Source: Lamellibrachia columna
Taxonomy: Eukaryota > Annelida > Polychaeta > Sabellida > Siboglinidae
NCBI GenBank assembly: GCA_963662155.1
Contig: OY759266.1
Coordinates: 2,399,139 to 2,463,138 of the forward strand
Length of the DNA stretch: 64,000 nt
Direction: 5' to 3'
Positions 6,258 through 38,821 of the stretch are shown here, piece by piece (positions within the stretch are counted from its first letter, which is position 1; every line of letters starts with the position of its first letter). The translations under genes were made by a program, and so were the position numbers. The notes under the pieces are model-generated. The model did not search any database. It had not been told where the DNA came from and saw nothing but the letters and a program-made list of their open reading frames with translations.

Positions 6258-6482
6258 ATGTACCGGCTAACGACATTCGCTGGTCGGATGAGGACAGTCG
6301 TAGCCGCGACCCGGCGAGGATGGGCTCTGGCGCCGTCGGAACGTATGGCGAGGCATTGCTGCCAGGGCAGACGACACTACGGGTCGCCGGCAGCGGCCGA
6401 GCCCTTTCTCAGCGGCAGTTCCGGCATCTATGTGGAGGAGATGTACAACGCCTGGCTCCAAAACCCGGCTTCCGTACACAAG
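6258..6482 (+). CDS. OGDH: OGDH exon 1 (residues 1-75)
   Basis: The ATG at 6258 opens the only frame that runs into AEPFLSGSS and [18 protein letters not shown]; it gives an Arg-rich mitochondrial leader. Donor GTCAGT at 6483. Phase 0 exit. Confidence 0.93.
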
Positions 6483-12403: not shown

Positions 12404-12461
<58 letters not shown>

Positions 12462-15400
12462 TAAATTGTTTCAAATTAGGTGATTGGGTAGGCATATTAG
12501 GAGTTTACTTGGTGCCATAATTATGAAACTTAGCTAAAAAATTATTCCCGAAAAGCTAGTAAATTTAGGATATAATTTTTATAAAACTCCAGTTGATTCA
12601 TAACGAATATATTTTGTATAATAGTAGGATAGAATCCACTGCACTGATGAGAGATCCAGAAAGAGTTAAATGAGAATTAATTTTAATTCCAAGACCACTT
12701 AATTTATACTTCCAAGCCCTCTAAAACTTATTTTTGATTTGTCTATGCTCGTCAGAAAATATTGCTAAATGTGTGTGAGGAAATGGTATCTTTCATCTGT
12801 TATAAATATGCCATAATTTTGTGATAGCGATAGAAATAGTCCTCTACATGTGTGTTACTTTGGAATACCAGTGACATGCATTAGTACCATATTGCTGTGG
12901 AAAGGTCACATTGACCCAATCCTTGGCCTAATTGGGTGACCATGGCAGTGAGGTTATGCTATAGTTTATATTATGTTTGACATCTACCACTCAAAGGCAT
13001 CAAGGGCATGGCCAATGCAGTGCACATTTCTGGATGGCTGGATGCGTTTGTTGTGGCTGACCATTGATAAATCCTTTGTGAATTAATTCTGGTCTTTTCA
13101 CCTCAGCCACTCAATCTGATTGTAGGTAAATTAATTGATTCTTTAACATGCAATGGTTTAGATAGGATGTGGACAAAGTAGCCATTGGTTTATCAAGAGT
13201 CAAACAAAGTGTTACCTTTGTGTGCCCCCCCCATCAGATATCTACCTTTGTGTGCCCCCCATCAGATATCTACCTTTGTGTGCCCCCATCAGATATCTCA
13301 CTTTTGTTATTAGACATTTCCATACTTTTATAAACATTTACATAATCAATAGATACTGTGTTCCGTTCCAGTATATCCTCTGGGAGAATGAGTTGTTTTT
13401 TTATTCAATCTACACTGTTATTTTACTAACACTAGTCCATGCCCTCTTGTTCTCCTAACTTATATTGACTTAATATAAACTTAATATAAACTGTTATTTT
13501 ACTAACACTAGTTCATGCCCTCTTGTTCTCCTAACTTATATTCACTTAATATAAACTTAAATGTGTTAAAATTAGACATTGTAAAAAATATTGTAGCATA
13601 GGTGAAAGCATAGATGTTATGTAAATCAAAACATGATTGTTACACTTTCATTTTGTAGTCATGGGACGTGTTCTTTCGCAACACCGACAGAGGTGCTGCT
13701 CCTGGTGCCGCCTACCAGCCGCCACCGGGTATCCGCACGGAAGTGTCCACGATGTCGGTGCCAATCGTTGCCGCGGCACAGTTCGACACAGAGAAGATGC
13801 TCAGCACAAAAGTGATTGACGACCATCTTGCTGTGCAGGCAATCATCCGGTCATACCAGGTATGCAGTATGTTTGAATATTTGCCAAACTCTTACTGTCT
13901 GAACTGTATAATTAGACCATTCTTTTCCCTTGGTTAACAAATCATGAAATATGATCCCATTATTTCCTGCCTCCCATTATTTCCTGCCTCCCATTATTTC
14001 CTGCCTCCCATTAATTCGTACCTCCCGTTATTTCCCACCTCCCACTATTTCCCACCTCCCATTATTTCTCACCTCCCATTATTTCTCGCCTCCCATTATT
14101 TCCCGCCTCCCACTATTTCCTGCCTTTGACAGAATAGGGTGGAAGGCCATATTTTCTAATGTTACAAATTAAAAATAGGTTGGTTCTTGTAATAGACTAT
14201 AGTGATGGGGAGTAATATGTAATTTAGATTCTGTTAATCATGGTTGGTAAATGTTATAATTTGCATTTCTACAAACCTCATGTTAATTGGAGGTCACGTG
14301 CTATAATAATTGCTATGTTTAAATGTAGGTATATATATTTTTTTCACTGCAAATCATGAAAACATCCATTGGTCCACTTAGTTTTGTTCTGGCTCTAATA
14401 AAGTTTATCATATTTATATTTAAAAAGAACTGTTGTTAGGGCTTTTCATAACTGAAGAGTATGTCGTCTTTGTTTGACCTTATGATTTTTTTTACTGGTT
14501 TATATGCAACATAAAGTGTGATTGCAGACTACGCTGTGTTATGTTACTGTTACATTATGTTACTGTTACATTATGTATGCACTGGCATTTAATATATACA
14601 GACATTGAGATCTGTCAACAATCATCTTACCCCGGCATATCATGCCATTGATGTTTTGTATAATCACTATGATGTGTTATGTAGGTTTGTTCTGCATACT
14701 CTCTCTAAATGTTTTGTACACTTTTGCAGACAGAATACGCCACCCATTGCACATGTTTCTTCACTCAGCTTACACTGTCGTGTTCAGTTCCTTCCACCCT
14801 GGCTTCATCCACTCCTTTATGTCATCCCTCCATCTTCTTTGTGGTCTCCTCTCCTTCACTTACCTTCAGCCTTTGAAGACGGCTTTGCTCTTTCATATTT
14901 GGTGTTAAACCAGTGATTCAACACAGTTCTCTGGTGTGTTATACACATTGAAGGCATTATGCAGACACACTTATGTAGTGATATCCAGTGATGTCCAGCA
15001 AGTTGTCATGACATCTATGATTGACTGTGTGTTTGGGGACAGGTGGTGGGTCATCGGTTTGCCAGTCTTGACCCACTGGATATATGTCACCACGTCATTG
15101 ACCCCGACTATGATACCATCAAACCTTATCACCTAGGTATTGTGGTTAGTGAGGACTAGTGTGATGTAAGGGTAAGGGGTGCCACCAGAGCTTGTAGTAG
15201 GGGTAAGGAGTGCCACCAGAGCTTGTAGTAGGTGTAAGGGGTGCCACCAGAGCTTGTAGTAGGGGTAAGGGGTGCCACCAGAGCTTGTAGTAGGGGTAAG
15301 GAGTGCCACCAGAGCTTGTAGTAGGTGTAAGGAGTGCCACCAGAGCTTGTAGTAGGGGTAAGGAGTGCCACCAGAGCTTGTAGTAGGTGTAAGGGGTGCC

Positions 15401-18400
15401 ACCAGAGCTTGTAGTAGGGGTAAGGAGTGCCACCAGAGCTTGTAGTAGGGGTAAGGAGTGCCACCAGAGCTTGTAGTAGGTGTAAGGAGTGCCACCAGAG
15501 CTTGTAGTAGGGGTAAGGAGTGCCACCAGAGCTTGTAGTAGGTGCAAGGGGTGCCACCAGAGCTTGTAGTAGGGGTAAGGAGTGCCACCAGAGCTTGTAG
15601 TAGGGGTAAGGAGTGCCATCAGCGCTTGTAGTAGGTGTAAGGGGTGCCACCAGAGCTTGTAGTAGGTGCAAGGGGTGCCACCAGAGCTTGTAGTAGGGGT
15701 AAGGAGTGCCACCAGAGCTTGTAGAAAGGGTAAGGAGTGCCACCAGAGCTTGTAGTAGGTGTAAGGGGTGCCATCAGCGCTTGTAGTAGGTGTAAGGGGT
15801 GCCACCAGAGCTTGTAATGGGTGTAAGGGGTGCCACCAGAGTTTGTAGTAGGTGTAAGGGGTGCCACCAGATCTTGTAGTGAGTGTAAGGGGTGCCACCC
15901 GAGCTAGTACTGGGTGTAAGGGGGGCCACCAGATCTTGTAGTGAGTGTAAGGGGTGCCACCAGATCTTGTAGTAGTGGTAAGGGGTGCTACGAGAGCTTG
16001 TAGTAGGGGTAAGGGGTGCTACCAGAGCTTGTAGTGGGTGTAAGGGGTGCCACCAGAGTTTGTAGTGGGTGTAAGGGGTGCCACCAGATCTTGTAGTGAG
16101 TGTAAGGGGTGCCACCCGAGCTTGTAGTGGGTGTAAGGGGTGCCACCAGATCTTGTAGTGAGTGTAAGGGGTGCCACCAAATCTTGTAGTAGTGGTAAGG
16201 GGTGCTACGAGAGCTTGTAGTAGGGGTAAGGGGTGCTACCAGAGCTTGTAGTAGGGGTAAGGGGTGCTACCAGATCTTGTAGTAGGTGTAAGGGGTGCCA
16301 CCTGACCTTGTAGTAGGGGTAAGTGTGCCACCAGAGCTTGTAGATCATGGACCCATTTCTCACGTGCCACCATTTTGAATCAATAAACAATGGCACCACC
16401 AGGACGTGACACAACATCAAAAGTATTTTTAAAGGCACTGCTTATAAGGTATTTGTTACTGACTCTTTTATGTTGAATTTGAGTGCAACTTTTATGAGTT
16501 TAATAATATTTTGTTGTACAATTGTGAAAAAAATCAAAGTAATCATGTTTATGTTAATTTTGAAACAACAATCGATTGCAATTAATGATTTATTAAATTC
16601 TAACTACATGATTAATAATTAATAATTAATAATAATTAATAATCCAATTCAAATGTGAATCCTACAATGAGGGCCATTTTTGTGATGACACTGTTCCTAA
16701 AGCCATCCAGAGCAATCTGTCTCCCCTGAACAATAAAATGAATTTCTGGAGCAAAAAGCACCATGCTGTGACATAGCATCAGATCTGTTTGCCATCCTGA
16801 ATGTGTCCAAGGTCATGTGATGTCACATGGTTTGTTACCAGCTATCAACAAATATCATGTGATGCACTTTATGGTTTACATGCTCTGGTGGTACCATAAT
16901 AAAACAAAGTCTTATATAACCAGTACAAAGCTGTTCCTCAGGCTAAGCCTGCTGGTGACTTGTGGTCAACTTTTCTGGACATTGTGGTATGATAATACAG
17001 GTAATAAGTACATTTTATAGCGCCATAACTCTGGACATTTCATTCAGAAGCGTTTAAAATACACAGGTGCTAAATTAATTAGTTAAATAAATGATAATAA
17101 ATTAGTTAAAACATGGTGCATATGTATATATATGCATATATTCATACATATATTAAATTAATTAGTTAAGTATATAATAATCAATTAGATAGGTTTGTTG
17201 GCCTTGTTTCAACGCATGTATCTGGCGTGCCCATCATCACTGCATGGCAGGTCCTTAAAAAAATTATATATTTATCATAATAGACCCATTGAAAGGATTG
17301 TGATCAGGTCGAATTCTTAAAATAATGTGGAACTCCAACAAGTAAGTTTTGTTCCAGTGGCGACACTAGCGAGACATCTTTGTTTACCTTATGTTATCAT
17401 AAACATTGTGTTGTGTTATTCAGCCATGGTCAGTGACGTCAACATCCGGCGTCTGTGTCTACTCTGACAAGCATGACTCGGCAGTATTCGTGTGATATGT
17501 CATGGCTCCTTCCACAGTTTTAAATCAGTTGGGGAGGGAGTTGTAACATTTCTATGCTTGTATAACAACACCAAGACACATTGACAGATCAGGCCACGAG
17601 TGAGACAAACGCGTGTCAACATACGACAGTTTCTACGTTGGTGATCGTTTTGTAGGTGCGAGGACACTTCAAGGCACAATTGGACCCCCTCAACATCTCC
17701 CGCACTAGTATCATTACAGACCATGTTGATGCCCTGCTGGCCACATATAAATACCACACAATTGGCCGGTATTATGAGTTGGGTAAGCCCGTCCACACAG
17801 TGGGCCTCGCATGTGCCTGCTGCTCCTGCACGTTGCTCTGATGGTTCAGCACTATTGTACCATAGTTGCATATTTCTGCTCTTTACCACAACTGCATGTC
17901 TCTGCACTTTACCACAGCTGCAAGTTTCTGCACTTTACCACAGCTGCATGTTTCTGCACTTTACCACAGCTGTATGTTTCTGCACTTTACCACAGCTGCA
18001 TGTTTCTGCACTTTACCACAGCTGCATGTTTCTGCACTTTACCACAGCTGCATATTTCTGCTCTTTACCACAGCTGCATGTCTCTGCACTTTACCACAGC
18101 TGCAAGTTTCTGCACTTTACCACAGCTGCATGTTTCTGCACTTTACCACAGCTGCATGTTTCTGCACTTTACCACAGCTGCATATTTCTGCTCTTTACCA
18201 CAGCTGCATGTCTCTGCACTTTACCACAGCTGCAAGTTTCTGCACTTTACCACAGCTGCATGTTTCTGCACTTTACCACAGCTGCATGTTTCTGCACTTT
18301 ACCACAGCTGTATGTTTCTGCACTTTACCACAGCTGCATGTTTCTGCACTTTACCACAGCTGTATATTTCTGCACTTTACCACAGCTGCAAGTTTCTGCA

Positions 18401-21400
18401 CTTTACCACAGCTGCATGTTTCTGCACTTTACCACAGCTGCATGTTTCTGCACTTTACCACAGCTGTATATTTCTGCACTTTACCACGGCTACATGTTTT
18501 TGTACGTTTCCATAGCTGCATGTTTCTGCACTTTACCACAGCAGCTGCATGTTTCTGTACTTTACCACAGCTACATGTTTCTGCACTTTACCACAGCTGC
18601 ATGTTTCTGTACTTCACCACAGCTACACGTTTCTGCACTTTACCACAGCTGCATGTTTCTGTACTTTACCACAGCTACATGTTTCTACACTTTACCACAG
18701 CTGCATGTTTCTGTACTTTACCATAGCTGCGTGCTTCTGCATTTCGCCAGTACACTGGTCTCTGTTTTCAATGGACATGTCTGCATCCAAGAAATAGTGT
18801 CCCTAGACTTCCTATACATGAGCTGCATATCTGCACGCCTGAGAGAGGTTACGTTGCAATAATGTAGTTTGTTCACCATAAACTGTCCACGTAAGAGAGG
18901 CAACCATTGATCAGAGTGTCCATTGAAAACAGGGCAAACAGTATACCTGCAGCATAGAAGTAAATAAACAGGTACTGTCTGCACTGTTTCTCTTGCACAG
19001 TTGTATTGTTTCTGTGTATACTGACATCACAACAATGTATACTGACATCACAACAATGTATACTGACATCGCAACAATGTATACTGACATCGCAACAATG
19101 TATACTGACATCGCAACAATGTATACTGACATCACAACAATGTATACTGACATCACAACAATGTATACTGACATCACAACAATGTATACTGACATCACAA
19201 CAATGTATACTGACATCACAACAATGTATACTGACATCACAACAATGTATACTGACATCACAACAATGTATACTGACATCGCAACAATGAGCAATGTTTA
19301 GCTAAGTCAGATGACATGCAGTAGATGATGCAAATTGAATGACATTTTAATGGCAGTTTTGATATGCACGACCATGGTTATTATTATTATTACATAATAT
19401 TTATGTGCATTTTTATTGGGTGTTTTGTGTGAGTCCACACCTGTTTTGTAGGAATTGTAAAATATTGTTGATAGTACTAGTGATATGGAATGGTGCCAGT
19501 GATATCCTCTGTTAGATCAACCAATCCATCAATATTTTATTTTCAACAAAAAGTTCCCATGTTTCCCAGGAAACTTCAGCAGCAACAGTTACATGGAACC
19601 ACCCCGTGATTGAACATGTTATTAGAACACGATTGACGTATAATAGGTTGCATTTCAAAGTATGTTTTTTGATGCTTTTCGAAACTTTCGGTAATTGTGA
19701 TTAATGTCTGCTGGTGCGTAAACTATCAATGCACATGACCAGACTTTATTGTTTGTGCACTTACAAATGTTGTTTGTGCACTTGCAAATGTTGTTTGTGC
19801 ACTTACAAATGTTGTTTGTGCACTTACAAATGTTGTTTGTGCACTTACAAATGTTGTTTGTGCACTTACAAATGTTGTTTGTGCACTTACAAATGTTGTT
19901 TGTGCACTTACAAATGGTTTAACTGTGCACAGAGAAGAAGATTATTTTCACACTTCATGCATTAATGAGAAGTTAATAAAAAACAGTTTAATTGTTGAAA
20001 CGGCTAGTTGAGCTGCCCAATGGAGGTTTAGTTGAGCAGCAGCTCAAGAATGAAGACGAGTTCTTTACCCCAAATTACATCAAAGAATTCATTTTTCTTA
20101 GCAAATTGGGACATCAGACAGCTACAAGGCAACATATTAACAGTTAGGTACACTGGTTGCGATTGGCCTATAAGTCTATATTAATTAAGTGTGTCGACTA
20201 ATTAATTAAGCGAGTAGACTTGTTAGAGACGTATTGTACCTATTGGGTAAATGTGCTGGCTGAGTTAATATGAATTTTGTGTACAAGGCGTACATAAGTT
20301 ATACAAATAAAGCATTTACGCAACTTTTGCTACACTGTGGCTTAACTTACCCCACACCAAGTGTTAGTTGAGCCAGCTTACCAACCCTATTTGAATCAGT
20401 TATATGTAATTATCTATGCATGCTAGCTATATTATCTTGGTATAAAATGATCTACTAATAATTATAGTTTATGTAAATTTTTTTTACTTATGACTATGAT
20501 TGCGCCCGAGACATCAAAAAGAATAAAAAATAGCTCAACTAACACTGCCTGCCCTATAATTAGCAGTAGTGTGTTGGGAAGGGGGTGGACAGAAGTGTGA
20601 TACTTATCCATAGTTCACCCCCGACCAGTATAGTTATAATACTTATCTGTAGTTCACCCCCGACCAGTATAGTTATAATACTTATCTGTAGTTCACCCCC
20701 GTTCAGTATAGTTATAATACTTATCTGTAGTTCACCCCCGACCAGTATAGTTATAATACTTATCTGTAGTTCACCCCCGACCAGTATAGTTATAATACTT
20801 ATCTGTAGTTCACCCCCGACCAGTATAGTTATAATACTTATCTGTAGTTCACCCCCGACCAGTATAGTTATAATACTTATCTGTAGTTCACCCCCGTCCA
20901 GTATAGTTATAATACTTATCTGTAGTTCACCCCCGACCAGTATAGTTATAATACTTATCTGTAGTTCACCCCCGACCAGTATAGTTATAATACTTATCTA
21001 TAGTTCACCCCCGACCAGTATAGTTATAATACTTATCCACAGTTCACCCCCGACCAGTATAGTTATAATACTTATCTATAGTTCACCCCCGACCAGTATA
21101 GTTATAATACTTATCTATAGTTCACCCCCGACCAGTATAGTTATAATACTTATCCACAGTTCACCCCCGACCAGTATAGTTATAATACTTATCTATAGTT
21201 CACCCCCGACCAGTATAGTTATAATACTTATCCACAGTTCACCCCCGACCAGTATAGTTATAATACTTATCTATAGTTCACCCCCGACCAGTATAGTTAT
21301 AATACTTATCCACAGTTCACCCCCGACCAGTATAGTTATAATACTTATCTGTAGTTCACCCCCGTCCAGTATAGTTATAATACTTATCTGTAGTTCCCTC

Positions 21401-24400
21401 CCAACTAGTATGCTTGTAATAATACTAATGCAATATCATACTTACGAAAAATTCTAAATTACAAATCTGTATCTAATATGTACACTGCCTACAACATATA
21501 ATGTGTTATGAATGTACTATTTTTTGGTTAGACATAATACATACATAAGAGATCTAATTTGTAGCGTTTTTTTTTTTTAAATCCTTGTGTGCTTCTGCCA
21601 CCAGTGATATTTTTATGTAAAGACTTAATTGATGATAATTTCACACAAAAAACGAAATGCAAAATTGGTACGAACATGATTTCTACTGACAGTATTTTTG
21701 TGTTGAGTACAAGGTGTTGAGTACAAGGTGTTGATACTGTTATGTTGAGTACAAAGTGTTGATACTGTTATGTTGAGTACAAGGTGTTGATACTGTTATG
21801 TTGAGTACAAAGTGTTGATACTGTTATGTTGAGTACAAGGTGTTGATACTGTTATGTTGAGTACAAAGTGTTGATACTGTTATGTTGAGTACAAGGTGTT
21901 GATACTATTATGAACCATGTTCATTACAGAGGAGCCCGACCTGGACCGGGTCTTCCAACTCCCCCCAACTACGTACATCGGAGGGAAGGAGACATCCTTG
22001 ACTCTGAAAGAAATCATCAACAGACTCGAGGTACAATGTCTTCCTTGGTGTAGTCTGTTTTAATAGTGAAGTGTCTTCTTTCATATTCTGTGTTATGATG
22101 TGGGCGGGAAGTGGCGTTTTAAGGGGGCATTGGGCCACGCCCCCTTTAGGCTTATATTTTTTATTGTGCTAATACAGCTGTGATGCATGGTTGACTAAGC
22201 TTAGCCCTTGGTCTCCCCCTTGGCCTCCCCTTGGCCCCCCCTTGGCCCCCCTTGCCCTCCCCCCTGGCCCCCCCGGTCTCCCCTTGGCCCCCTTGCCCTC
22301 CCCTTGGCCCCCCTTGGCCCCCTTGCCCTCCCCCTTGGCCCCCCCCTTGGCCTCCCCTTGGCCCCCCTTGGCCTTCTCCAGCGAGATCCTGGATATGCCA
22401 TTGTGGGCAGGTCACATGGTGCAGATGCCAGCGGCCAACTGCCAGAGAGGGCAGAGACAGGGAAACAGTGAAGCCGCAGGAAAAGGGGAAGACAACAGTT
22501 AAAAGAGGAAGACTGCGTTAAGAGGGGTGTAAGAAAGGTCCCTTCTGCCTGCGGTGGACTGGCAGTCAGGAGGCTGTAGGTCCCTTCTACCTGTGGTGGA
22601 CTGGCAGTCAGGAGGCTGTAGGTCCCTTCTACCTGCGGTGGGTGGGCAGTCAGGAGGCTGTAGGTCCCTTCTACCTGTGGTGGGTGGACAGTCAGGAGGC
22701 TGTAGGTCCCTTCTACCTGTGGTGGACTGGCAGTCAGGAGGCTGTAGGTCCCTTCTACCTGCGGTGGGTGGGCAGTCAGGAGGCTGTAGGTCCCTTCTAC
22801 CTGTGGTGGGTGGGCAGTCAGGAGGATGTAGGTCTCTTCTGCCTGTGTTGGACAGGCAGTCAGGAGGATGTAGGTCTCTTCTGCCTGTGTTGGACAGGCA
22901 GTCAGGAGGATGTAGGTCTCTTCTGCCTGCGGTGGACAGGCAGTCAGGAGGCTGTAGGTCTCTTCTGCCTGTGTTGGACGGGCAGTCAGTAGGCTGTAGG
23001 TCTCTTCTGCCTGTGTTGGACGGGCAGTCAGGAGGATGTAGGTCTCTTCTGCCTGTGTTGGACGGGCAGTCAGGAGGATGTAGGTCTCTTCTGCCTGTGT
23101 TGGACAGGCAGTCAGGAGGATGTAGGTCTCTTCTGCCTGCGGTGGACTGGCAGTCAGGAGGATGTAGGTCTCTTCTGCCTGCGGTGGACTGGCCGTCAGG
23201 AGGATGTAGGTCTCTTCTGCCTGCGGTGGACAGGCAGTCAGGAGGATGTAGGTCTCTTCTGCCTGCGGTGGACTGGCCGTCAGGAGGATGTAGGTCTCTT
23301 CTGCCTGCGGTGGACAGGCAGTCAGGAGGCTGTAGGTCTCTTCTGCCTGCGGTGGACTGGCAGTCAGGAGGATGTAGGTCTCTTCTGCCTTGCGGTGGAC
23401 TGGCCGTCAGGAGGATGTAGGTCTCTTCTGCCTGCGGTGGACAGGCAGTCAGGAGGCTGTAGGTCTCTTCTGCCTGCGGTGGACTGGCAGTCAGGAGGAT
23501 GTAGGTCTCTTCTGCCTGCGGTGGACAGGCAGTCAGGAGGCTGTAGGTCTCTTCTGCCTGCGGTGGACTGGCAGTCAGGAGGATGTAGGTCTCTTCTGCC
23601 TGCGGTGGACTGGCCGTCAGGAGGATGTAGGTCTCTTCTGCCTGCGGTGGACTGGCAGTCAGGAGGATGTAGGTCTCTTCTGCCTGCGGTGGACAGGCAG
23701 TCAGGAGGATGTAGGTCTCTTCTGCCTGTTGTGGACAGGCAGTCAGGAGGATGTAGGTCTCTTCTGCCTGCGGTGGACTGGCCGTCAGGAGGATGTAGGT
23801 CTCTTCTGCCTTGCGGTGGACTGGCCGTCAGGAGGATGTAGACCCGTTCTACCATAAATACTGGAATTCTTTAAAAATACATTTTTATTTCCCTGTTGTT
23901 GAACATGCTGTGCGTTTTGTAGAACATCTACTGCCAACACATCGGAGTTGAATACATGTTCATCAACAACCTGGAGCAGTGCGATTGGATAAAGAAGCGA
24001 TTTGAGACGCCGGGAGTGATGACTCTGACGAAGGAAGAGAAACGGCGGCTACTGACTCGAGTCCTTAGATCCACCAGGTACACTGTCTTTAGTCAAAACA
24101 CGGCCTCAACACTGACTCTAGTTGACACGCGGCCACACTCTGTAATGACTGTCAGCATGTTTCAGAGGCTAGCTCATTTGTGCAGTTGTGGTGTAGTGTG
24201 TTGTATCGTTTTGACAGAATCATCTGACAAACTATTAAATTATTTTTTTACTGGATCCCGTAAAAACCGGATCCCAAAAAAACAAAAGTAGTCCGGCTCT
24301 TTATACGATGATATAGATCTATTCACACTTTTGCAAGCTACACACTTTTATTAACCTGACTGCGCATATTACCTAAACTATTCATGCGCATATTACTTAA

Positions 24401-27400
24401 ACTATTCATGTGCATATTACTGAATGAAACTTATGAATTACTTAACTATTCTTGCACTACAGATTTGAACATGAATGGACTTAATAAATTGAGGAGGAGG
24501 TGGTTCAAAACTGATTCAAATATTGGTCTTCTTATGGAAGAATCTGATGTTCTACCATGTTCCCTTGTTAAGGAATGTTTGTTATCCTTGGCATATTTTC
24601 CCATGTTTGTTTGCCTTGGCATATATTCCCATGTTCTTTTTACTTGTAAATATTTTCCTTGTATTTGCTGAAGTGTATGTTTCAGTAGTATAACATGTGG
24701 TCATTATACACAATAAAACAGTCTTGTTAAGTCTCTCTTACATTGTATGAATTTTATGCTTTTTGCAGACATTACAGATTTGAACTATTCTGCTTGTTTC
24801 TTATTGCTGCAGGTTTGAAGAATTCCTTGCCAAGAAATGGTCTTCAGAGAAGCGTTTTGGACTGGAAGGTTGTGAAGTGTTGGTACCTGCCATGAAGGTC
24901 GTCATTGACTTGTCTAGCGCATTTGGTGTCGAGAGTTTCATCTTTGGAATGCCTCACAGGTTTGTTATCATTTACTACACAGACGTGTAAACATATTTAT
25001 GCCATTTTAAAGAAAAATATAAATACCAGAATTAAATTCTGAAGAATAGTTGTTAAAATGTTTAAAATGAATTAGCTTGTTGTGTCAAAAAGAAAATTTA
25101 TATTCATTTATTCAAATTTATGTTAATTATTTTAGTCCTAAAATTATGTTTGTTTTATTGTGTTTGTTTTATTATGTTTGTTTTATTGTGTTTGTTTTAT
25201 TATGTTTGTTTTATTATGTTTGTTTTATTATGTTTGTTTTATTGTGTTTGTTTTATTGTACATAAAGAAACTTTTCAATACATTGAGTTATTAATTATTC
25301 ACTAGAGATTCCCTGTGAGTCAGAGTTACCCCGCCTGGCGTATGCTATACCTCTACTGAACGATACTGGGATTTATGCACGAGTTGCTTCAGAATGTTGT
25401 ATTTAATGAGCTTTTAATCCCAGTACAACATTCTGGAGCAAAGGACGCACGACGATACAAGTTTTTACTGCATTGGATGTCACACTGTGCAGGGAAAGCA
25501 TATACTGATATCAGAAACTCTGACAACTGCGCCAGTTTTTAATGGCAGTTGAAGATCTTTTCTGGCAAGTGTATAACTGAGAAATCATTATGTTTACTGG
25601 CATTAATTTCATTTAATTAATCTATTACTATTATACAATCTGTGTACTTTAATTAAATTAATTGTTTTAATTACTCAACTCCATGTATACTTTTAGTTGT
25701 ATTGCCCTTAATTTAATTTATTTTAATTATTTAATTCCATGTGCATTTTTTTTTGTATTGCCCTTAAGTTAATTTAATTGTATTTATTATTTTAACTATT
25801 TATTCAATGTATACTTTTTGTTGCATTGCCTTTAATTTAATTAATTATTTTAGCTATTTAATTCTTAATACTTTTAGTTGTGTTATAGTGTATTAATGTA
25901 TTTTTATATATCTATTAATTTTTAGACTTCTACAGCACTGTAGAGCACCAGATGATTATGGTGCTATATAAATGTCGTATTTTATTATATTATTTATTAT
26001 CGCCATAGACAGCGCGTTATCAGTAGCAGTTACCCATGTCATAAATAGGATTGTTGCCTACTGACAGAGGTCGACTTGATGTGCTGGCGAACGTCTGTCG
26101 TAAGCCTCTTGAGCAGATCTTCTGCCAGTTTGACTCTAAGCTGGAGGCGGCGGACGAGGGTTCCGGGGACGTCAAGTACCACCTGGGGATGTCTCATGAG
26201 CGCATCAATCGTGTCACCAAGAAGAACATCAAACTTGCGGTCGTTGCCAACCCCTCTCACCTTGAGGCCGTTGACCCCGTGGTGCAGGGCAAGACAAAGG
26301 CTGAGCAGTATTACCGCGGGGACACGGAGGGCAAGAAGGTTAGTGTTTAACCACATAACAACATATTGTGTAATAACATTGTTTAACACTCCCTCTTGTT
26401 CATGTTGCCCATCACTCGATGGGTTTGTCCTTGTTCATGTCGCCCATCACTTGATGGATTTGTTCATGTCGCCCATCATTCGATAGGTTTGTCCTTGTTC
26501 ATGTCGCCCATCACTCAATGGGTTTGTCCTTGTTCATGTCGCCCATCACTCGATGGGTTTTTCCTTGTTCAGATATTTAGCGTGTGAATAGTTTAAGTAC
26601 TGTACACAGTCATTTTAATAAATGAGTGCATACGTTTGTTAAGATCATCAAAAGAATTAACTTTAATAATTCGATCGGGCAACTTGTGAACCTATGAATA
26701 GCCGGACCGCCTTTGCTCTATTTTTCCTGGATTTTTACAGGATCCAGACAAAAATCATTTAGTAGTTTGTCCAAAGATTAAAAAAAAATTAAATAACAAA
26801 CGAGCTAGCGGGTCTAGTGGATACTAGATAGGCTTGATCTTTTACATAATACATATAACTATATTAACATTTTTATTACATATTATTTAGGTAGGACTTT
26901 TTCATGGACTACATTGAGATTTGAAAATACTTATTGTTGGTATGGTTTTTAATAGAATTTTAAGTCATAATTACATGTTATGTAAAACACCTCAGAGTGA
27001 TCTCAATTGATCAGGCGCCATAGAAATACTTTTATCATTATTACGTCTGGCAGGTAATGAGCATGCTGATTCATGGTGACGCCGCCTTTGCTGGTCAAGG
27101 CATCGTCTATGAGACATTCCACTTGAGTGACCTGCCCGCCTACACAACGCACGGCACCATCCACATTGTGGTCAACAATCAGGTCAGTGATAACTCTCTG
27201 GTCAGTGATACCTCTCTGGTCAGTGATAACTCTCTGGTCAGTGATAACTCTCTGGTCAGTGATAGCTCTGGTCAGTGATAGCTCTCTGGTCAGTGATAGC
27301 TCTCTGGTCAGTGATAGCTCTCTGGTCAGTGATAGCTCTCTGGTCAGTGATAACTCTCTGGTCAGTGATCTCTCTGGTCAATGATAGCTCTCTGGTCAGT

Positions 27401-30400
27401 GATAGCTCTCTGGTCAGTGGCCATACTCTGGCCTAATTAAAGATAATATATAATACAGTCAAACATGTCTTATGTGACCGCTCAGTGGATGGTTGAAATA
27501 GGGTCTCTTCATGCGGGTGGTCTCTTGATACAGGTTGTATCTTAATACAGGCGGTTTCTTTTGGTGGAGTTGACTGGTCATTAATGACAGGTGGTCGTTA
27601 ATGGCAGGTGGTCGTTAATGGCAGGTGGTCGTTAATGGCAGGTGGTCGTTAATGGCAGGTGGTCGTTAATGACAGGTGGTTGTTAATGGCAGGTGGTCAT
27701 TAATGACAGGTGGTCGTTAATGACAGGTGGTCGTTAATGGCAGGTGGTCGTTAATGGCAGGTAGTCGTTAATGGTGGTCTTTTGTACAAAAAAGCAAAAT
27801 AAAAGTCATGGTTTGCAACTACAATCTAAGATATCACCCTTGTGTTTTTCTCAGAATTGGTTCTAAAAGTGGGACATTTTGGTCAAATCTCAATTTTCCT
27901 GGTGGCTGACATGTTGACCAGGGCAACCAATAAGCACCTAATAGTTCTAGGAAATCGATGCTGCTAGACTTCTGCTGTGATGCATTAAATGTTTTCGACT
28001 AGAATGTAGGGCCGATGAGTATACACCAAAGCAATACAAACTCAATCAAATAAGCTGCTAAGTCAGAATGTTGTGTAAGTTGAGTAATAAGATAATGAAT
28101 GAATGTTGTGATAAGATTGTGAATGTATGTTGTGATAAGATAATGAATGCATGTTGTGATAAGATAATGAATGTATGTTGTGATAAGATAATGAATGTAT
28201 GTTGTGATAAGATAATGAATGTATGTTGTGATAAGATAATGAATGTATGTTGTGATAAGATAATGAATGCATGTTGTGATAAGATAGTGAAAGTATGTTG
28301 TGATAAGATTGTGAATGTATGTTGTGATAAGATAATGAATGCATGTTGTGATAAGATAATGAATGCATGTTGTGATAAGATAATGAATGCATGTTGTGAT
28401 AAGATAATGAATGCATGTTGCGATAAGATAATGAATGCATGTTGTGATAAGATAATGAATGCATGTTGTGATAAGATAATGAATGCATGTTGTGATAAGA
28501 TAATGAATGTATGTTGTGATAAGATAATGAATGTATGTTGTGATAAGATAATGAATGCATGTTGTGATAAGATAATGAAAGTATGTTGTGATAAGATTGT
28601 GAATGTATGTTGTGATAAGATAGTGAATGCATGTTGTGATAAGATAATGAATGCATGTTGTGATAAGATAATGAATGCATGTTGTGATAAGATAATGAAT
28701 GCATGTTGTGATAAGATAATGAATGCATGTTGTGATAAGATAATGAATGCATGTTGTGATAAGATAATGAATGTATGTTGTGATAAGATAATGAATGCAT
28801 GTTGTGATAAGATAATGAATACATGTTGTGATAAGATAATGAATGCATGTTGTGATAAGATAATGAATGCATGTTGTGATAAGATTGTGAATGCATGTTG
28901 TGATAAGATAATGAATGTATGTTGTGATAAGATAATGAATGCATGTTGTGATAAGATAATGAATGCATGTTGTGATAAGATAATGAATGCATGTTGTGAT
29001 AAGATAATGAATGCATGTTGTGATAAGATAATGAATGCATGATGTGATAAGATAATGAATGCATGTTGTGATAAGATAATGAATGCATGTTGTGATAAGA
29101 TAATGAATGCATGTTGTGATAAGATTGTGAATGTATGTTGTAGATCGGCTTCACGACAGATCCTCGATCCTCCCGATCATCTGCATACTGCACGGACGTG
29201 GCACGTGTTGTAAATGCACCAATCTTCCACGTGAATGCGGACGACCCTGAGGCAGTGATGCATGTGTGCAAGGTCGCGGCCGAGTGGCGGGCAGAATGGG
29301 GCAAGGACGTCGTCATTGACTTGGTGGGTCGGTCATAGTCGTCTTATGCTGTCATCATTATAAATCAGTGCATCCAGGTTGAGTTCAGTTATGATTTTGT
29401 AATCATAATTTACTGTAAATAATACTAAAAAAATACCCATCCTCCGGACAGGATAACTTGGTAGTTCTTAATCATTGTCGTGATAATGATATTTACACAA
29501 TTTCAGGATACGCAACATTTTCACAGAAATATCCATCTATGTCTTTTTATTTTATTTATAATATTTTGATGGCTTCTAGGAATACAACTCTCGGAATTGC
29601 GACATATTACTGGCAGTTATAGCAGCCTCTATTGATGTGGAAGAAAGGACGGTTTACATAACTTACATAGGAACAATCTTTGAAAACATGCATAGTGTTG
29701 CGAACAGTCGTTTGTAATAACCGTGAAAGGTAATTCGATAGAAATGGTAATAACGTGGTATTTCTAAAAGCAAAACACCTTCCTAAGGTTGTAGGTGAAC
29801 CCTGGTATGTTTGGTGCCCGAGATTCAAATCATCATGGAGGAATAACACACATATATACTCTAGTTTGATTATAGGAAGATGTAATTATAATGACATTTT
29901 GATTTACCAAGACTTAACAAGGTCTCCACCAGAAGCAACATGTCCCAGATAAGCCAGTGGACAAGAAACGCATCAGTTGCGTGTTGCCGTCCTTTAAAGT
30001 CGTGTAAATCACTGATGAGATTCATCCATGTTTTGGGGTCCATGGTTATTGTGATGCCTGTGAACAATGCATAGCTAATGGATTGCTTGGAAATAATCTT
30101 TGGTTTTTTTAAACAAACATCTGTGATGCCAGAATTTTTTCCCAGAAAAATTATAATGGCAACCAAAATAGATCCTCTCTAGGGACACTGAATTTGGTTA
30201 TTTGAACAACAGTGAAATGATGATGACAGTGAATAAATAACAAGTTCATATGAGTTTGCAGAATAATTGTTTTTGTCTAGGTGTCTTATCGACGTAATGG
30301 CCACAACGAGATTGATGAGCCAATGTTTACTCAACCGCTCATGTACAAGAAGATCAAAGAAATGCCAACCGTTTTCAAGAAATACTCTGAGAAACTGATA

Positions 30401-33400
30401 GAGGAGGGAGTCATCACGCAGCAGGAGTACGAGGTATCACAAAATGACAACTGACCTACAATTTATACTGGCTTAAAAAATTTTATTATGTAAATATGTG
30501 ATATCAAAACGTTTCAGATATGAAAAGGATATATTACATATGCGTCGCCTGTTTTACTGACTCAATGCAAAAAATGTGGACGAGAAGATAAAGTTGTGTT
30601 TAAGTAAATACTTGCAAATAACAAGGACTATTGTCAAGTTTTATATCCACTACAAGTGACCTAATCATATGACATGCTTGGTAGGCTTCGTTGACATACA
30701 CAGCTGCTATATCTTTAGTTTATATTTGTATAAAAAAGTACTTAACAAGGCTGGGGCAGCTATTATGTGCTTGTTTTGAATTGAATAGTTTCAATAGAAA
30801 TGTTTAATATAATCTAGCCATTTCTTCGCAACTTATAGTGGAAATGCCAAATAATATATTCCAGATTAATAACAGTTTTTAATTTATTTAGTGATGTTTC
30901 ATAATTTTAAAACCAATTTTTAAATATGAAAAAAAATGTCAGCTTATATAATTTTGAGAAACTCCCCAAAGAAATAAATGACAGACATATAAGTGTTAAA
31001 AAGGTTTTAGGTCTGATCAACCTGAAGCTGCATGCTGCATGTTAACTGATTATTTAACTTCTGTGAATGCAGGACAGCTGGATTTATTCGATACTAAATG
31101 TTAATAGTGGTTTGTCCTTACACATCCGGGTGTTGGTGTATTGCAGCAGGAGGTGGCGAAGTACGACAAGATCTGTGAGGAGGCGTATGCGGACGCCAAG
31201 AAGGAGACAGCCATTCACAACCGCCAGTGGCTTGACTCGCCGTGGACGGGGTTCTTCGAGGGGCGTGACGCCATGAAGCTTCTGCCGACAGGAATCGATG
31301 AGGAAACTCTCATGCACATTGGGGGCGTGTTCTCCACAGAACCCTCGAAGGAGTTCATCCTGCATGGAGGTCAGTAGGTCGTGGTACGGAGGTTGGGTGG
31401 CTGTGTATGGGAGTCATTTAAAACTCAGTTCATTTAGCCCATCGCAAATCAAGTTCGTTGTTGTTCCTATCTGTAGTGTGTGGACAGCTTAAGTAATATG
31501 TAGTGTGTGGACAGCTTAAGTAATATGTAGTGTGTGGACAGCTTAAGTAATATGTAGTGTGTGGATAGCTTAAGTAATATGTGCAGTCAGTTTAATAAAT
31601 TAATTTTTGCTGAAATCATTGAAACAGTTGATTTTGATTGTTTGATCTGGTCACTTGTCAAAGTGTGAATAGCCTTCTGTCATAGTATATACAGTGAATA
31701 GTCTTCTGTCACAGTATATACAGTGAATAGTCTTCTGTCACAGTATGTACAGTGAATAGCCTTGTGTCACAGTATGTACAGTGAATAGCCTTCTGTCACA
31801 GTATACACAGTGAATAGCTTTCTGTCACAATATGTACAGTGAATAGACTTCTGTCACAGTATGTACAGTGAATAGCCTTTTGTCACAGTATGTACAGTGA
31901 ATAGCCTTCTGTCATGGTATGTATAGTGAATAGCCTTCTGTCACGGTATGTACAGTGAATAGCCTTCTGTCACGGTATCTATAGTAAGTAGCCTTCTGTC
32001 ACAGTATACACAGTGAATAGCCTTCTGTCACAGTATACACAGTGAATAGCCTTCTGTCATAGTATGTGCAGTGAATAGCCTCCTGTTACAGTATACACAA
32101 TGAATAGCCTTCTGTCACAGTATGTACAGGGAATAGCCTCCTGTCATTTATTGTCCTCTGTGAGAACAAGTACTTTATGAGTGCTGTAGATGTGATGACT
32201 CTGTGAGAACAAGTACTTTATGAGTGCTGTAGACGTGATGACTCTGTGAGAACAAGTACTTTATGAGTGCTGTAGATGTGATGACTCTGTGAGAACAAGT
32301 ACTTTATGAGAGCCGTAGATGTGATGACTCTGTGAGAACAAGTACTTTATGAGAGCCGTAGATGTGATGACTCTGTGAGAACAAGTACTTTATGAGTGCT
32401 GTAGATGTGATGACTCTGTGAGAACAAGTACTTTATGAGAGCCGTAGATGTGATGACTCTGTGAGAACAAGTACTTTATGAGAGCTGTAGATGTGATGAC
32501 TCTGCGAGAACAAGTACTTTATGAGAGACGTAGATGTGATAACTCTATGAGAACAAGTACTTTATGAGTGCTGTAGGCGTGATGACTCTGTGAGAACAAG
32601 TACTTTATGAGAGCCGTAAATGTGATAACTCTATGAGAACAAGTACTTTATGAGAGCTATAGATGTGATGACTCTGTGAGAACAAGTACTTTATGAGAGC
32701 TATAGATGTGATGACTCTGTGAGAACAAGTACTTTATGAGAGCCGTAAATGTGATAACTCTATGAGAACAAGTACTTTATGAGAGCTATAGATGTGATGA
32801 CTCTGTGAGAACAAGTACTTTATGAGTGCTATAGATGTGATGACTCTGTGAGAACAAGTACTTTATGAGTGCTGTAGATGTGATGACTCTGCGAGAACAA
32901 GTACTTTATGAGAGACGTAGATGTGATAACTCTATGAGAACAAGTACTTTATGAGTGCTGTAGATGTGATGACTCTGTGAGAACAAGTACTTTATGAGAG
33001 CCGTAAATGTGATAACTCTATGAGAACAAGTACTTTATGAGAGCTATAGATGTGATGACTCTGTGAGAACAAGTACTTTATGAGTGCTGTAGATGTGATG
33101 ACTCTGCGAGAACAAGTACTTTATGAGAGCTGTAGGCGTGATGACTCTGTGAGAACAAGTACTTTATGAGTGCCGTAAATGTGATAACTCTATGAGAACA
33201 AGTACTTTATGAGAGCTATAGATGTGATGACTCTGTGAGAACAAGTACTTTATGAGTGCTGTAGATGTGATGACTCTGCGAGAACAAGTACTTTATGAGA
33301 GCTGTAGGCGTGATGACTCTGTGAGAACAAGTACTTTATGAGAGCCATAAATGTGATAACTCTATGAGAACAAGTACTTTATGAGAGCTATAGATGTGAT

Positions 33401-36400
33401 GACTCTGTGAGAACAAGTACTTTATGAGAGCTGTAGGCGTGATGACTCTGTGAGAACAAGTACTTTATGAGAGCCATAAATGTGATAACTCTATGAGAAC
33501 AAGTACTTTATGAGAGCTATAGATGTGATGACTCTGTGAGAACAAGTACTTTATGAGAGCTGTAGGCGTGATGACTCTGTGAGAACAAGTACTTTATGAG
33601 AGCCGTAAATGTGATAACTCTATGAGAACAAGTACTTTATGAGAGCTATAGATGTGATGACTCTGTGAGAACAAGTACTTTATGAGTGCTGTAGACATGA
33701 TAACTCTATGAGAACAAGTACTTTATGAGTGCCGTAAATGTGATAACTCTATGAGAACAAGTACTTTGTGAGAGCTATAGATGTGATGACTCTGTGAGAA
33801 CAAGTACTTTATGAAAGCTGTAGACATGATGACTCTGTGAGAACAAGTACTTCATGAGTGCTGTAGACATGATAACTCTATGAGAACAAGTACTTTATGA
33901 GTGCCGTAAATGTGATAACTCTATGAGAACAAGTACTTTATGAGAGCTATAGATGTGATGACTCTGTGAGAACAAGTACTTTATGAGTGCTGTAGACATG
34001 ATAACTCTATGAGAACAAGTACTTTATGAGTGCCGTAAATGTGATAACTCTATGAGAACAAGTACTTTGTGAGAGCTATAGATGTGATGACTCTGTGAGA
34101 ACAAGTACTTTATGAAAGCTGTAGACATGATGACTCTGTGAGAACAAGTACTTTATGAGAGCCGTAGACATGATGACTCTGTGAGAACAAGTACTTCATG
34201 AGAGCCGTAGATGTGATGACTCTGTGAGAACAAGTACTTTATGAGAGACGTAGATGTGATGACTCTGCTCATCTGTTGCAGGTCAGAAGAGGATTCTGAA
34301 GGCGCGCAAGGAAATGATAGAGAAGAGGGAGGCAGACTGGGCGCTAGGGGAGGCCTTCACCTTTGGCTCTCTCCTCAAGGCAGGCACGCACGTCCGTCTG
34401 TCGGGCCAGGACGTCGAGAGGGGCACGTTCAGGTGGGACAGGGCATGGGGCAGGGAACAGGGCAGGGAGTAGGGCAGGGGGTAGTAGGGCAGGGGGTAAT
34501 AGGGTGGGGGTAGTAGGACACAGTGGACTCTGCTTAACAAAATTACAGATACCATAATCAGCCGTTTAGTAGAATCAAAATGGCTGTGATGGAATCATCC
34601 CCTATTCCCACTGAGTTAAATGTACCGTTTGGTTGAAGCACGTCTCCCAGTTAGTTAAATCACGTCTCCCAGTTAGTTGAATCATGTCTCCCAGTTAGTT
34701 GAATCAAATACACAAAAATTATACATTGTAGTGTGAAATTACATGTTTTTTCTGGAAAAACCAGGGCTTTTTGATTTTGATGCAAAAAAACGACACATTG
34801 TAAAGGTACAGTAAATATTTACAATATTTTTATTATTATATATTTTGCTTGTCTCATTTCAGACTAATTTTGCCAAAAATTTAACCTATTTAGTGTGACA
34901 TACTATCTCATTTGTACACATATTTAACCTATCTTGTGTGACATACTATCTTATTTGTACACATATTTAACCTATCTAGTGTGACATACTATCTCATTTG
35001 TACACATGTTTAAAATATCTAGTATTACATACTATCTCATTTGTACACATATTTAACATATCTAGTATTACCGGTACATATTATCTCATTTGTACACATA
35101 TTTATCTAGTATGACATGCTATCTCATTTGTACACTTGTTTTATTTAGTTTTGGTGAAATAATTAGACAAACTATTAAAAGTTTGCTGTCTTTTATTAAG
35201 CTGACTGCATATTACTTAAACAGTTCACACAATACAGATTAGAATATCAACAAACCTGATTCACGATGGGCTCAATGAATTTAGCAGGGAGTTTTTTGGG
35301 GTGTGGTGGCTCTGGTAAGAACATCAGACTCCGGTAAGAACATCAGACTCCTAATTGAGAGAATCCAATTTTGAATCATCTTGCTGCCATTTTGAAACAA
35401 AACTTGGGCAATTTTGTTCTCATCGTTCACCCCACATTGCCACAGTTCACCCCACATTGCCACAGTTCCCCCCACATTACCACAGTTCACCCCATATTGC
35501 CACAGTTCACCCCACATTGCCACAGTTCACCCCACATTGCCACAGTTCACCCCACATTGCCACAGTTCACCCCACATTGCCACAGTTCACCCCACATTGC
35601 CACAGTTCAATCAGCTGTATCAATGAGTACCTGGCTACAGACAGATGTGGATATGTGAACAAATAGTAATTGTAGCGAGGCTGAATGCTTCCCAGAGAAG
35701 TGGAGATGGCGTTGGAATGAACAGGTCTGCGGGGGGGGGTGAAGTGTAAAGCGTTTTGAGCAGTCGTACAGATTGGATACCGTACTGTATAAGAACGTGC
35801 CTTTACTTTAATGTTTACTGGATGCACTACGTAAGAACGTGTCTTTACTTTAATGTTTACTGGATACACTACGTAAGAACGTGTCTTTCTTTAATGTTTA
35901 CTGGATACACTACGTAAGAACGTGTCTTTACTTTAATGTTTACTGGATGCACTACGTAAGAACGTGCCTTTACTTTAATGTTTACTGGATGCACTACGTA
36001 AGAACGTGTCTTTACTTTAATGTTTACTGGATACACTACGTAAGAACGTGTCTACTTTAATGTTTACTGGATGCACTACGTAAGAACGTGTCTTTACTTT
36101 AATGTTTACTGGATACACTACATAAGAACGTGTCTTTACTTTAATGTCTATTGGATACACTACGTAAGAACGTGTCTTTACTTTAATGTTTACTGGATAC
36201 ACTACGTAAGAACGTGTCTTTACTTTAATGTTTACTGGATACACTACGTAAGAACGTGTCTTTACTTTAATGTTTACTGGATGCACTACATAAGAACGTG
36301 TCTTTACTTTAATGTTTACTGGATGCACTATGTAAGAACGTGTCTTTACTTTAATGTCTACTGGATACACTACGTAAGAACGTGTCTTTCTTTAATGTTT

Positions 36401-38788
36401 ACTGGATACACTACGTAAGAATGTGTCTTTACTTTAATGTTTACTGGATGCACTACGTAAGAACGTGTCTTTACTTTAATGTTTACTGGATGCACTACGT
36501 AAGAACGTGTCTTTACTTTAATGTCTACTGGATACACTACGTAAGAACGTGTCTTTACTTTAATGTCTACTGGATACACTACGTAAGAACGTGTCTTTAC
36601 TTTAATGTTTACTGGATGCACTACGTAAGAACGTGTCTTTACTTTAATGTCTACTGGATACACTACGTAAGAACGTGTCTACTTTAATGTCTACTGGATA
36701 CACTACGTAAGAACGTGTCTTTACTTTAATGTTTACTGGATGCACTACGTAAGAACGTGTCTTTACTTTAATGTTTACTGGATACACTACGTAAGAACGT
36801 GTCTTTACTTTAATGTCTACTGGATACACTACGTAAGAACGTGTCTTTACTTTAATGTCTACTGGATACACTACGTAAGAACGTGTCTTTACTTTAATGT
36901 CTACTGGATACACTACGTAAGAACGTGTCTTTACTTTAATGTTTACTGGATACACTATGTAAGAACGTACATTTTCTTTAATGTTGTAAAACACTTGTGC
37001 GAGTCCTGGCTGAGAACGACGTTGTCAATGTGTTTGCAGTCATCGCCACCATGTCCTCCATGACCAGAACCGAGACCAAGTGGTCTACGTGCCTCTGAAC
37101 CACCTCTACGAGGACCAGGCGGAGTATGTGGTCTGCAACAGCTCCCTGTCAGAGTACGGAGTCCTCGGTGAGTGCCAGTGTCAAATAAAGTATAGACTCC
37201 CTGATAACATATCATATGAAATTTGGACCCGCGGATACAATTGTCATTATGAAATGTGGATGATATGATTAAAATACCCGCCCTCCTCAACATCCAAGTA
37301 ACGTTTACATAGTCAAGGATTTAAAGCAACACACACACCTACAAGAGCATGAATGCAAGCCAGCACACTCAAATTGTGTGATATCTGAATATTCACCTTC
37401 TCGCCTTGACGCCTTGACCGGGACAGTTCATGTGCCAGCGTTGTCTGTCCTCTGCTGTGCACAGCAGGGTCGGTAGGTCTTATGTCGTATAATAGTAATA
37501 ATACAAGTACTTATATAGCGCCCGATCAATCGAGATTGCTCTCAGGCGCTTTACATACATAGTAGTATTTTTTACAGGCCATAAAATTGCTTAGAGATTA
37601 ATTATATTGAGAATAGTCTACACAAATGCTGAACATTAAAAAGAAATGCTACCAAAATAACCATGTCAAAATATTCTATGACACTACTTTAAATACAGTT
37701 TGTATTACAAGTAAAGGTAAGAAAACGATCATGAAACTGACAACAAATTAAATATACTAAAAATATTCTAAAAACTACTTTAAATATATTCATTTATACA
37801 AGTAAGAATCAGAATATAACCATAAAACAACGTTTGTCTTGCGTTCGGTGCGAAATGTGGAGGAGTCTTCTGAAGCATTTTGTTTCAAATGCTTGTACAC
37901 GTCTCTCTGTTTCTGAGTCCAGTTCTCGCATCCATAGAGGAGGATTGATACAACGAGTGCTCTGTAGAGTTTAAGCTTTGTTTGGAAGCTGATGTCTCTG
38001 CTCTTCCAGGTGGTGTTGTGTCTTGACATTGCAGACGTGGCCACTGCAGTCCTTATTTTGATTTCCTTTGTTGAGGTGCCATCTTTGCTTAAGGTGGACC
38101 CAAAATATTTGAAAGAGTCTACTTCCTCAAGGTTCTGCCCGTTCATCATGATGTTAATGGGGGTGTTCTGGTTGGTACTGTTGACAAGTATTTTGCTTTT
38201 CTCTGAACTGACTACCATCCCATAAGCTGTTGGATATTATACTTGACAATAAAATTAGATGACTTGAGATTTATGAAGGATTTACTCTAATGAACCATGC
38301 TATGCAACGGCAACTTTCTTGTTATGAAACAAAAACATGCACAGCCTACAGACATCAATGGCTCGTCCTTCTTCCTGAACCTGTTGTATTCCTGTAGGCT
38401 TTGAGTTGGGCTACTCCATCACAAACCCGAACGCTCTCGTGATCTGGGAGGCCCAGTTTGGTGACTTCGCGAACACGGCCCAGTGCATCATCGACCAGTT
38501 CATTAGCAGTGGACAGACGAAGTGGGTGCGGCAGAGTAACCTTGTCATGCTGCTGCCCCACGGCTACGAGGGCATGGTAGGTGTCTCGCACTCTGTGTCC
38601 GTCCGTCCTTCCGTCTGTCTGTGATGTTTTTGGATGAATTAAAAAACCAGTGGCTGTTCAGTTGCAGACACATCACTATTTTGTTTGCTACTGGTTATTA
38701 ATGTTGACCTCTAAGAGATTATATAAAACTTTTTGGTTAACAAATATACTCTACAGTCCTCTATAATCTGCTTACTGCATATTTGGGA

Positions 38789-38821
<33 letters not shown>

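Follow-up and report, generated by a model that had tools for sequence, protein, structure and literature searches.

The closest described system is the pair of homologous exons 4a and 4b (LS1/S1) of vertebrate OGDH, one of which is present in each mRNA (PMC7969005). Double use of these exons is out of frame, their combined length not being a multiple of three; exon 4b encodes a DADLD motif, and the intron that separates 4a from 4b is size-restricted and has distant branch points (PMC7969005). In human OGDH, the DADLD of exon 4b is essential for activation by Ca2+ (PMC7969005), and substitutions of its aspartates abolish Ca2+ sensitivity (PMC9177970). Here we describe a pair of alternative exons, 3a and 3b, in the OGDH gene of the annelid Lamellibrachia columna, encoded in a 64,000-nt stretch of contig OY759266.1 (assembly GCA_963662155.1, positions 2,399,139 to 2,463,138 of the forward strand; hereafter, the window). 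As judged from the genomic sequence and from related proteins, 3a and 3b are probably a genuine mutually exclusive pair, at a site matching that of vertebrate exons 4a/4b. The two systems share the gene, the protein segment, the presence of two homologous exons and, for a 3a that ends at 15136, the loss of frame on double use. The annelid pair thus appears to extend the published vertebrate type, but with no xADLD motif in either exon.

A probable mutually exclusive pair in annelid OGDH

Exons 3a (94 nt) and 3b (127 nt) are each flanked by AG and GT, are entered in phase 0 and left in phase 1, share their neighbouring exons and encode a common core, V-x-GH-x4-LDPL-x-I. Joined with exons 1, 2 and 4 to 19, they give open frames of 1012 aa (with 3a) and 1023 aa (with 3b). 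Because each exon is entered in phase 0 and left in phase 1, one of them restores the frame, whereas both or neither lead to an early stop, after 190 codons on inclusion of the 94-nt 3a together with 3b and after 165 codons on double skipping. The initial annotation of this region had proposed the two exons with these boundaries, lengths, core and phases, the two enzyme lengths, a TAG in 3b on double use and a TGA in exon 4 on double skipping; all of this is present in the sequence or was reproduced by exon joining. Also borne out are its assignment of the gene, the homology of the two exons with their matching phases, and the resemblance to the pair in vertebrate OGDH.

The two exons also stand out in a search of the window, in six frames, with a hidden Markov model built from 94 distinct exon peptides, which were cut from 175 of the 201 fetched proteins of relatives (the motif rule excluded the other 26). 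In this search, 3b scores 31.6 bits and 3a 23.1 bits, the next best stretch 9.0 bits; the reversed window reaches 5.9 bits, and 100 dinucleotide shuffles peak at 13.9 bits. Neither a third exon copy nor an intact ADLD exon was detected in the window with this profile in six frames. The features of the gene, all on the + strand, are as follows.

6258..6482, +: exon 1, with the start codon and the presumed mitochondrial leader (tblastn match to the human OGDH N-terminus; GT donor after 6482)
13659..13859, +: exon 2, 201 nt, phase 0 at its end (exon joining)
15043..15136, +: alternative exon 3a, 94 nt, encoding VVGHRFASLDPLDICHHVIDPDYDTIKPYHL plus one base (AG/GT flanks, phases, open frame, profile score)
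15137..15144, +: possible lengthening of 3a by 8 nt, up to the stronger donor GTG/GTTAGT (donor score, frame test)
15137..17655, +: 3a-3b intron, 2519 nt, containing a tandem array (31 bp x 37.8) at 15172-16343
17656..17782, +: alternative exon 3b, 127 nt, encoding VRGHFKAQLDPLNISRTSIITDHVDALLATYKYHTIGRYYEL plus one base (AG/GT flanks, phases, open frame, profile scores)
17706..17708, +: TAG, in frame once the 94-nt 3a is joined to 3b (sequence and exon joining)
21930..22030, +: exon 4, 101 nt, with a TGA at 21999-22001 that is read if 3a and 3b are both skipped
23923..41609, +: exons 5 to 19 (15 exons; tblastn, exon joining, Pfam)
41607-41609, +: OGDH stop codon

The gene spans 6258-41609 and has 18 constant exons in addition to 3a and 3b, with all introns of the GT-AG type; the exons were located by tblastn with human OGDH as the query, and the splice sites and phases were assigned by hand. 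The identity of the gene is indicated by the presence, above the Pfam cut-off in the 3b form, of all four expected families, E1_dh, Transket_pyr, OxoGdeHyase_C and the N-terminal OGDH domain; the best sequence matches in the PDB are 8i0k and 7wgr. In a tree of the part of the protein that follows the exon (55 rows, with Sinanodonta P0123 and P0149 left out as lacking an anchor), the L. columna protein falls in a set of 18 rows with Capitella and Helobdella (support 99/99) that is separate from molluscs and nemerteans, a placement that marks it as probably annelid. The highest identity is 79% (P0003).

Affinities of the two exons

The peptides of relatives at the exon site are of two kinds, short ones with an xADLD motif and others without it. 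The motif is DADLD in vertebrates, SADLD in insects and AADLD, EADLD or SADLD in the annelid clade. Exon 3b is readily placed: against a profile of three long exons of the annelid clade (P0001, P0002 and P0004) it scores 47.4 bits, compared with at most 25.0 bits for the six other groups, and none of 300 shuffles of its tail reached 47.4 bits. These three long exons, which are known as protein records that do not include exon borders, share the tail with 3b (LLATYKYHT ... LEEP in P0004 and P0001).

The position of 3a is less clear. Its scores against the mollusc non-ADLD (23.9 bits), annelid ADLD (21.2 bits), mollusc ADLD (18.7 bits) and annelid long (17.2 bits) profiles are nearly tied. In a tree of exon peptides (34 peptides, 37 columns), 3a joins the Sinanodonta exon with support of 97/89, a grouping that is unsafe given the long branches and few columns. 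In topology tests, placing all long exons in one clade yielded a p-AU (approximately unbiased test) of 0.23, and a clade of the ADLD exons with 3a was disfavoured (p-AU 0.023). In these comparisons and in a protein search with the 3a region, no close relative of 3a was found, and its origin is ambiguous. A separate observation concerns the OGDH record P0123 of the clam Sinanodonta woodiana, which contains VIGHRFADLDPL and, like 3a, lacks the Arg and has GHRFA (VIGHRFA).

Comparison with other OGDH exon pairs

Exchange of this segment is apparent in several animal groups. Pairs of records that are identical over 800-812 residues after the exon and differ in it were found in Ruditapes, Ischnura, Gryllus, Tribolium, Orussus, Apis and the bat Pipistrellus, and an octopus record (X2) has a counterpart that is 98% identical after the exon and differs in it, a probable swap. 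In the insects (Apis, Tribolium, Gryllus, Ischnura and Orussus), a short SADLD exon peptide is exchanged for a longer one, with identity over 800 residues afterwards; in the molluscs (Ruditapes X4/X5; Octopus X2 with its 98% counterpart), the same segment is swapped and one member of each pair carries xADLD. The initial annotation had suggested comparing 3a and 3b with the isoforms of molluscs, insects and vertebrates: one member of each of the eight pairs compared (8/8) has the xADLD motif, whereas neither 3a nor 3b does. Among molluscs, Lottia is described as having DADLD and no duplication (PMC7969005); the clam records, and probably the octopus ones, add molluscs beyond Lottia in which the segment is swapped. 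The snail Bradybaena similaris has two OGDH proteins, P0130 and P0133, that are encoded on different contigs and share 91.6% identity after the exon; an ADLD exon is present in one and absent from the other. These look like two genes and were left out of the pair count, and the two exon types may have become divided between gene copies in this snail.

The order of the exons is hinted at by gene models that run through both. In Pelobates (P0017), Synaphobranchus (P0050) and Suricata (P0071), 4a precedes 4b, and in an insect model (P0192), with peptides equal to those of Tribolium, the long exon precedes the ADLD exon; in the L. columna gene, by contrast, the long exon is second and there is no ADLD exon. 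In the Paragonimus record P0121, the ADLD exon is first and the other exon second. If 3a descends from an ADLD exon, a point that its origin leaves unsettled, the order in L. columna would match that of the fluke and not that of insects or vertebrates, which would favour separate duplications. Among the matches listed in a literature search that covered few subscription papers, the exon pair described is that of vertebrates, and none deals with an annelid or other invertebrate pair; the available portions of two papers on Drosophila OGDH (PMC10323237, PMC11089389) mention no exon pair.

Calcium and the function of the swapped segment

The initial annotation had taken the more acidic 3a for the Ca2+-responsive exon and 3b for the insensitive one. 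Exon 3a does encode a D-x-D-x-D run (IDPDYD), and in vertebrates it is the DADLD exon that confers Ca2+ sensitivity (PMC7969005). Nevertheless, this assignment is not supported, and we regard it as improbable. At the positions aligned with human DADLD, 3a has HHVID, without gaps and with two of the three aspartates replaced, and 3b has RTSII; the D-x-D-x-D run starts four residues further on. None of the 17 annelid-clade relatives has Asp at the first ligand position (0/17), where replacement of D by A removes Ca2+ sensitivity and where Capitella has A (PMC7969005). Furthermore, acidity does not mark the exon type because the annelid-clade long exons of P0002 and P0004 have acidic runs at the same place as IDPDYD of 3a. 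The latter run might bind a metal. The second human site, ESDLD (PMC7969005), aligns with EPDLD in exon 4, which is present in both isoforms. The pair therefore departs from the vertebrate Ca2+ switch in that DADLD is found in neither exon. It departs from it also in the intron, which is 2519 nt long, with an AG-free zone of 26 nt before 3b, as opposed to a short intron with a distant branch point and a long AG exclusion zone.

Choice between 3a and 3b would alter the segment after LDPL, which in vertebrates holds the Ca2+ site. Because neither exon has the xADLD motif, the swap would more likely tune E1 by another route than Ca2+. Denton (2016) reportedly placed the beginning of Ca2+ sensitivity at the origin of chordates, which would also speak against a Ca2+-responsive 3a.

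Splice donors, constraint and the enforcement of exclusion

Several observations weigh against a working exclusive pair, most of them concerning 3a. With a donor matrix derived from the 17 constant introns of the gene, the 3a donor after 15136 scores -0.82 bits, the lowest of 19 (the next is 1.95 bits), and 138 GT sites in the 3a-3b intron score at least as high. The donor after 15144 scores 6.16 bits, and when it is used, the 2-3a-3b-4 form has an open frame of 1057 aa and 2-3a-4 loses its frame. Since the 15144 donor opens the double-exon form, frame-enforced exclusion depends on the 15136 donor; the proposal of the initial annotation that each transcript must carry exactly one of the exons thus holds for a 3a that ends at 15136 and fails for one that ends at 15144. 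In addition, 3a has no Arg in the RGH motif, a residue that 173 of 175 relatives retain, and when proteins were searched with the 3a region, P0001 was the single hit (E 0.031) among 4 candidates. Finally, in simulations of neutral decay, some sequences still retained the frame, splice dinucleotides and GH....LDPL core jointly when identity had fallen to 75% (in 38 of 1500 runs for one model ancestor and 44 of 1500 for the other), which makes a recent loss of function of 3a compatible with its state.

Were the 15144 donor used, 3a would be a cassette of 102 nt (34 codons) added in frame before 3b and not exclusive with it. The higher donor score and the open 1057-aa frame speak for such a cassette, but the resulting protein would carry two consecutive GH....LDPL cores, and among the 201 fetched proteins doubled cores are limited to individual gene models (P0017, P0050, P0071, P0121 and P0192). 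Moreover, the exon end in relatives matches 15136 and not 15144: with the former, the last residues of 3a are YHL, followed by the shared EEP, as in P0001 and P0002 and in parallel to 3b, which points to 15136 as the homologous exon boundary. A cassette is accordingly hard to credit. A relic, that is, an old alternative exon now out of use in a gene that yields the 3b enzyme only, would fit the weakest donor in the gene, the loss of two residues (the arginine of RGH and the glycine that follows LDPL) and the failure to find a close relative. However, the open frame, both splice dinucleotides, the phases and the GH....LDPL core of 3a are all intact. Under simulated neutral decay to the observed 42% identity, the frame, dinucleotides and core were jointly kept in 0 of 1500 runs for each ancestor, and at 60% identity in 4 and 2 runs, from which we infer, within the limits of such a model, that 3a has been under long constraint. 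The clam record P0123, which shares the missing Arg and VIGHRFA, also speaks against decay, and a relic is unlikely.

A substantial possibility, in contrast, is that splicing of 3a and 3b is not coordinated, so that exclusivity is only apparent and arises through decay of the wrong products. The sole enforcing feature found is the frame incongruity, which applies to a 3a that ends at 15136. Simple steric exclusion is unlikely because the 3a-3b intron is 2519 nt long, in agreement with the initial annotation, and the distant branch-point arrangement of vertebrates is not seen, given that only 26 nt separate the 3b acceptor from the closest upstream AG. No U12 donor or branch motif was found in any of the three introns next to 3a and 3b, and base pairing among these introns was not above that of shuffled sequences (best hydrogen-bond score 26 per pair, within or below 12 shuffles each). 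This pairing test is crude, though, and protein regulators leave few traces in sequence. Uncoordinated splicing concerns how exclusion is achieved and not whether it is, and it overlaps with the explanation preferred here. In a mutually exclusive pair, each productive mRNA would take either 3a or 3b, and the wrong products would be removed by nonsense-mediated decay or would yield no enzyme. The weak donor of 3a suggests that 3b could be the default and 3a a regulated choice that needs an activator.

Repeats and other features of the window

The introns of the OGDH gene are packed with minisatellites, namely arrays of 31 bp x 37.8 (15172-16343), 26 bp x 33.9 (17858-18741), 39 bp x 20.8 (20600-21411) and 42 bp x 31.0 (22536-23841); the 31-bp array starts 36 nt past the end of 3a. 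A role of the 31-bp array after 3a and the 26-bp array after 3b as decoy splice sites was considered and dropped because the former contains one donor-like site of at least 5 bits and the latter no acceptor-like site of at least 6 bits; 92 sites in the 31-bp array score at least like the weak 3a donor. Intron 1 also contains a perfect (GCA)19 run at 12404-12460. Downstream of OGDH, on the + strand (56818-60004), there are two overlapping open reading frames with endonuclease and reverse transcriptase domains, probably a non-LTR (long terminal repeat) retrotransposon. On the - strand, the regions 50409-53139 and 55389-56683 have three frames free of stops for some 410-890 codons and are perhaps tandem arrays rather than genes.

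Implications

The published explanation of the OGDH exon pair, studied in vertebrates, is that it lets Ca2+ switch the citric acid cycle on or off. A pair that lacks the Ca2+ motif, next to the swaps in insects, a clam and probably an octopus, suggests a different use for the segment, at present or in the past. Swapping of this segment might, tentatively, be a habit of Bilateria that is independent of the vertebrate Ca2+ site, such that protostomes, this annelid above all, would regulate the enzyme through it in some different way, and a Ca2+ switch would have been fitted to one of the exons in vertebrates; we consider this scenario possible rather than probable. The annelid pair makes testable both a role of the segment apart from Ca2+ and the question whether the duplication was one old event or several.

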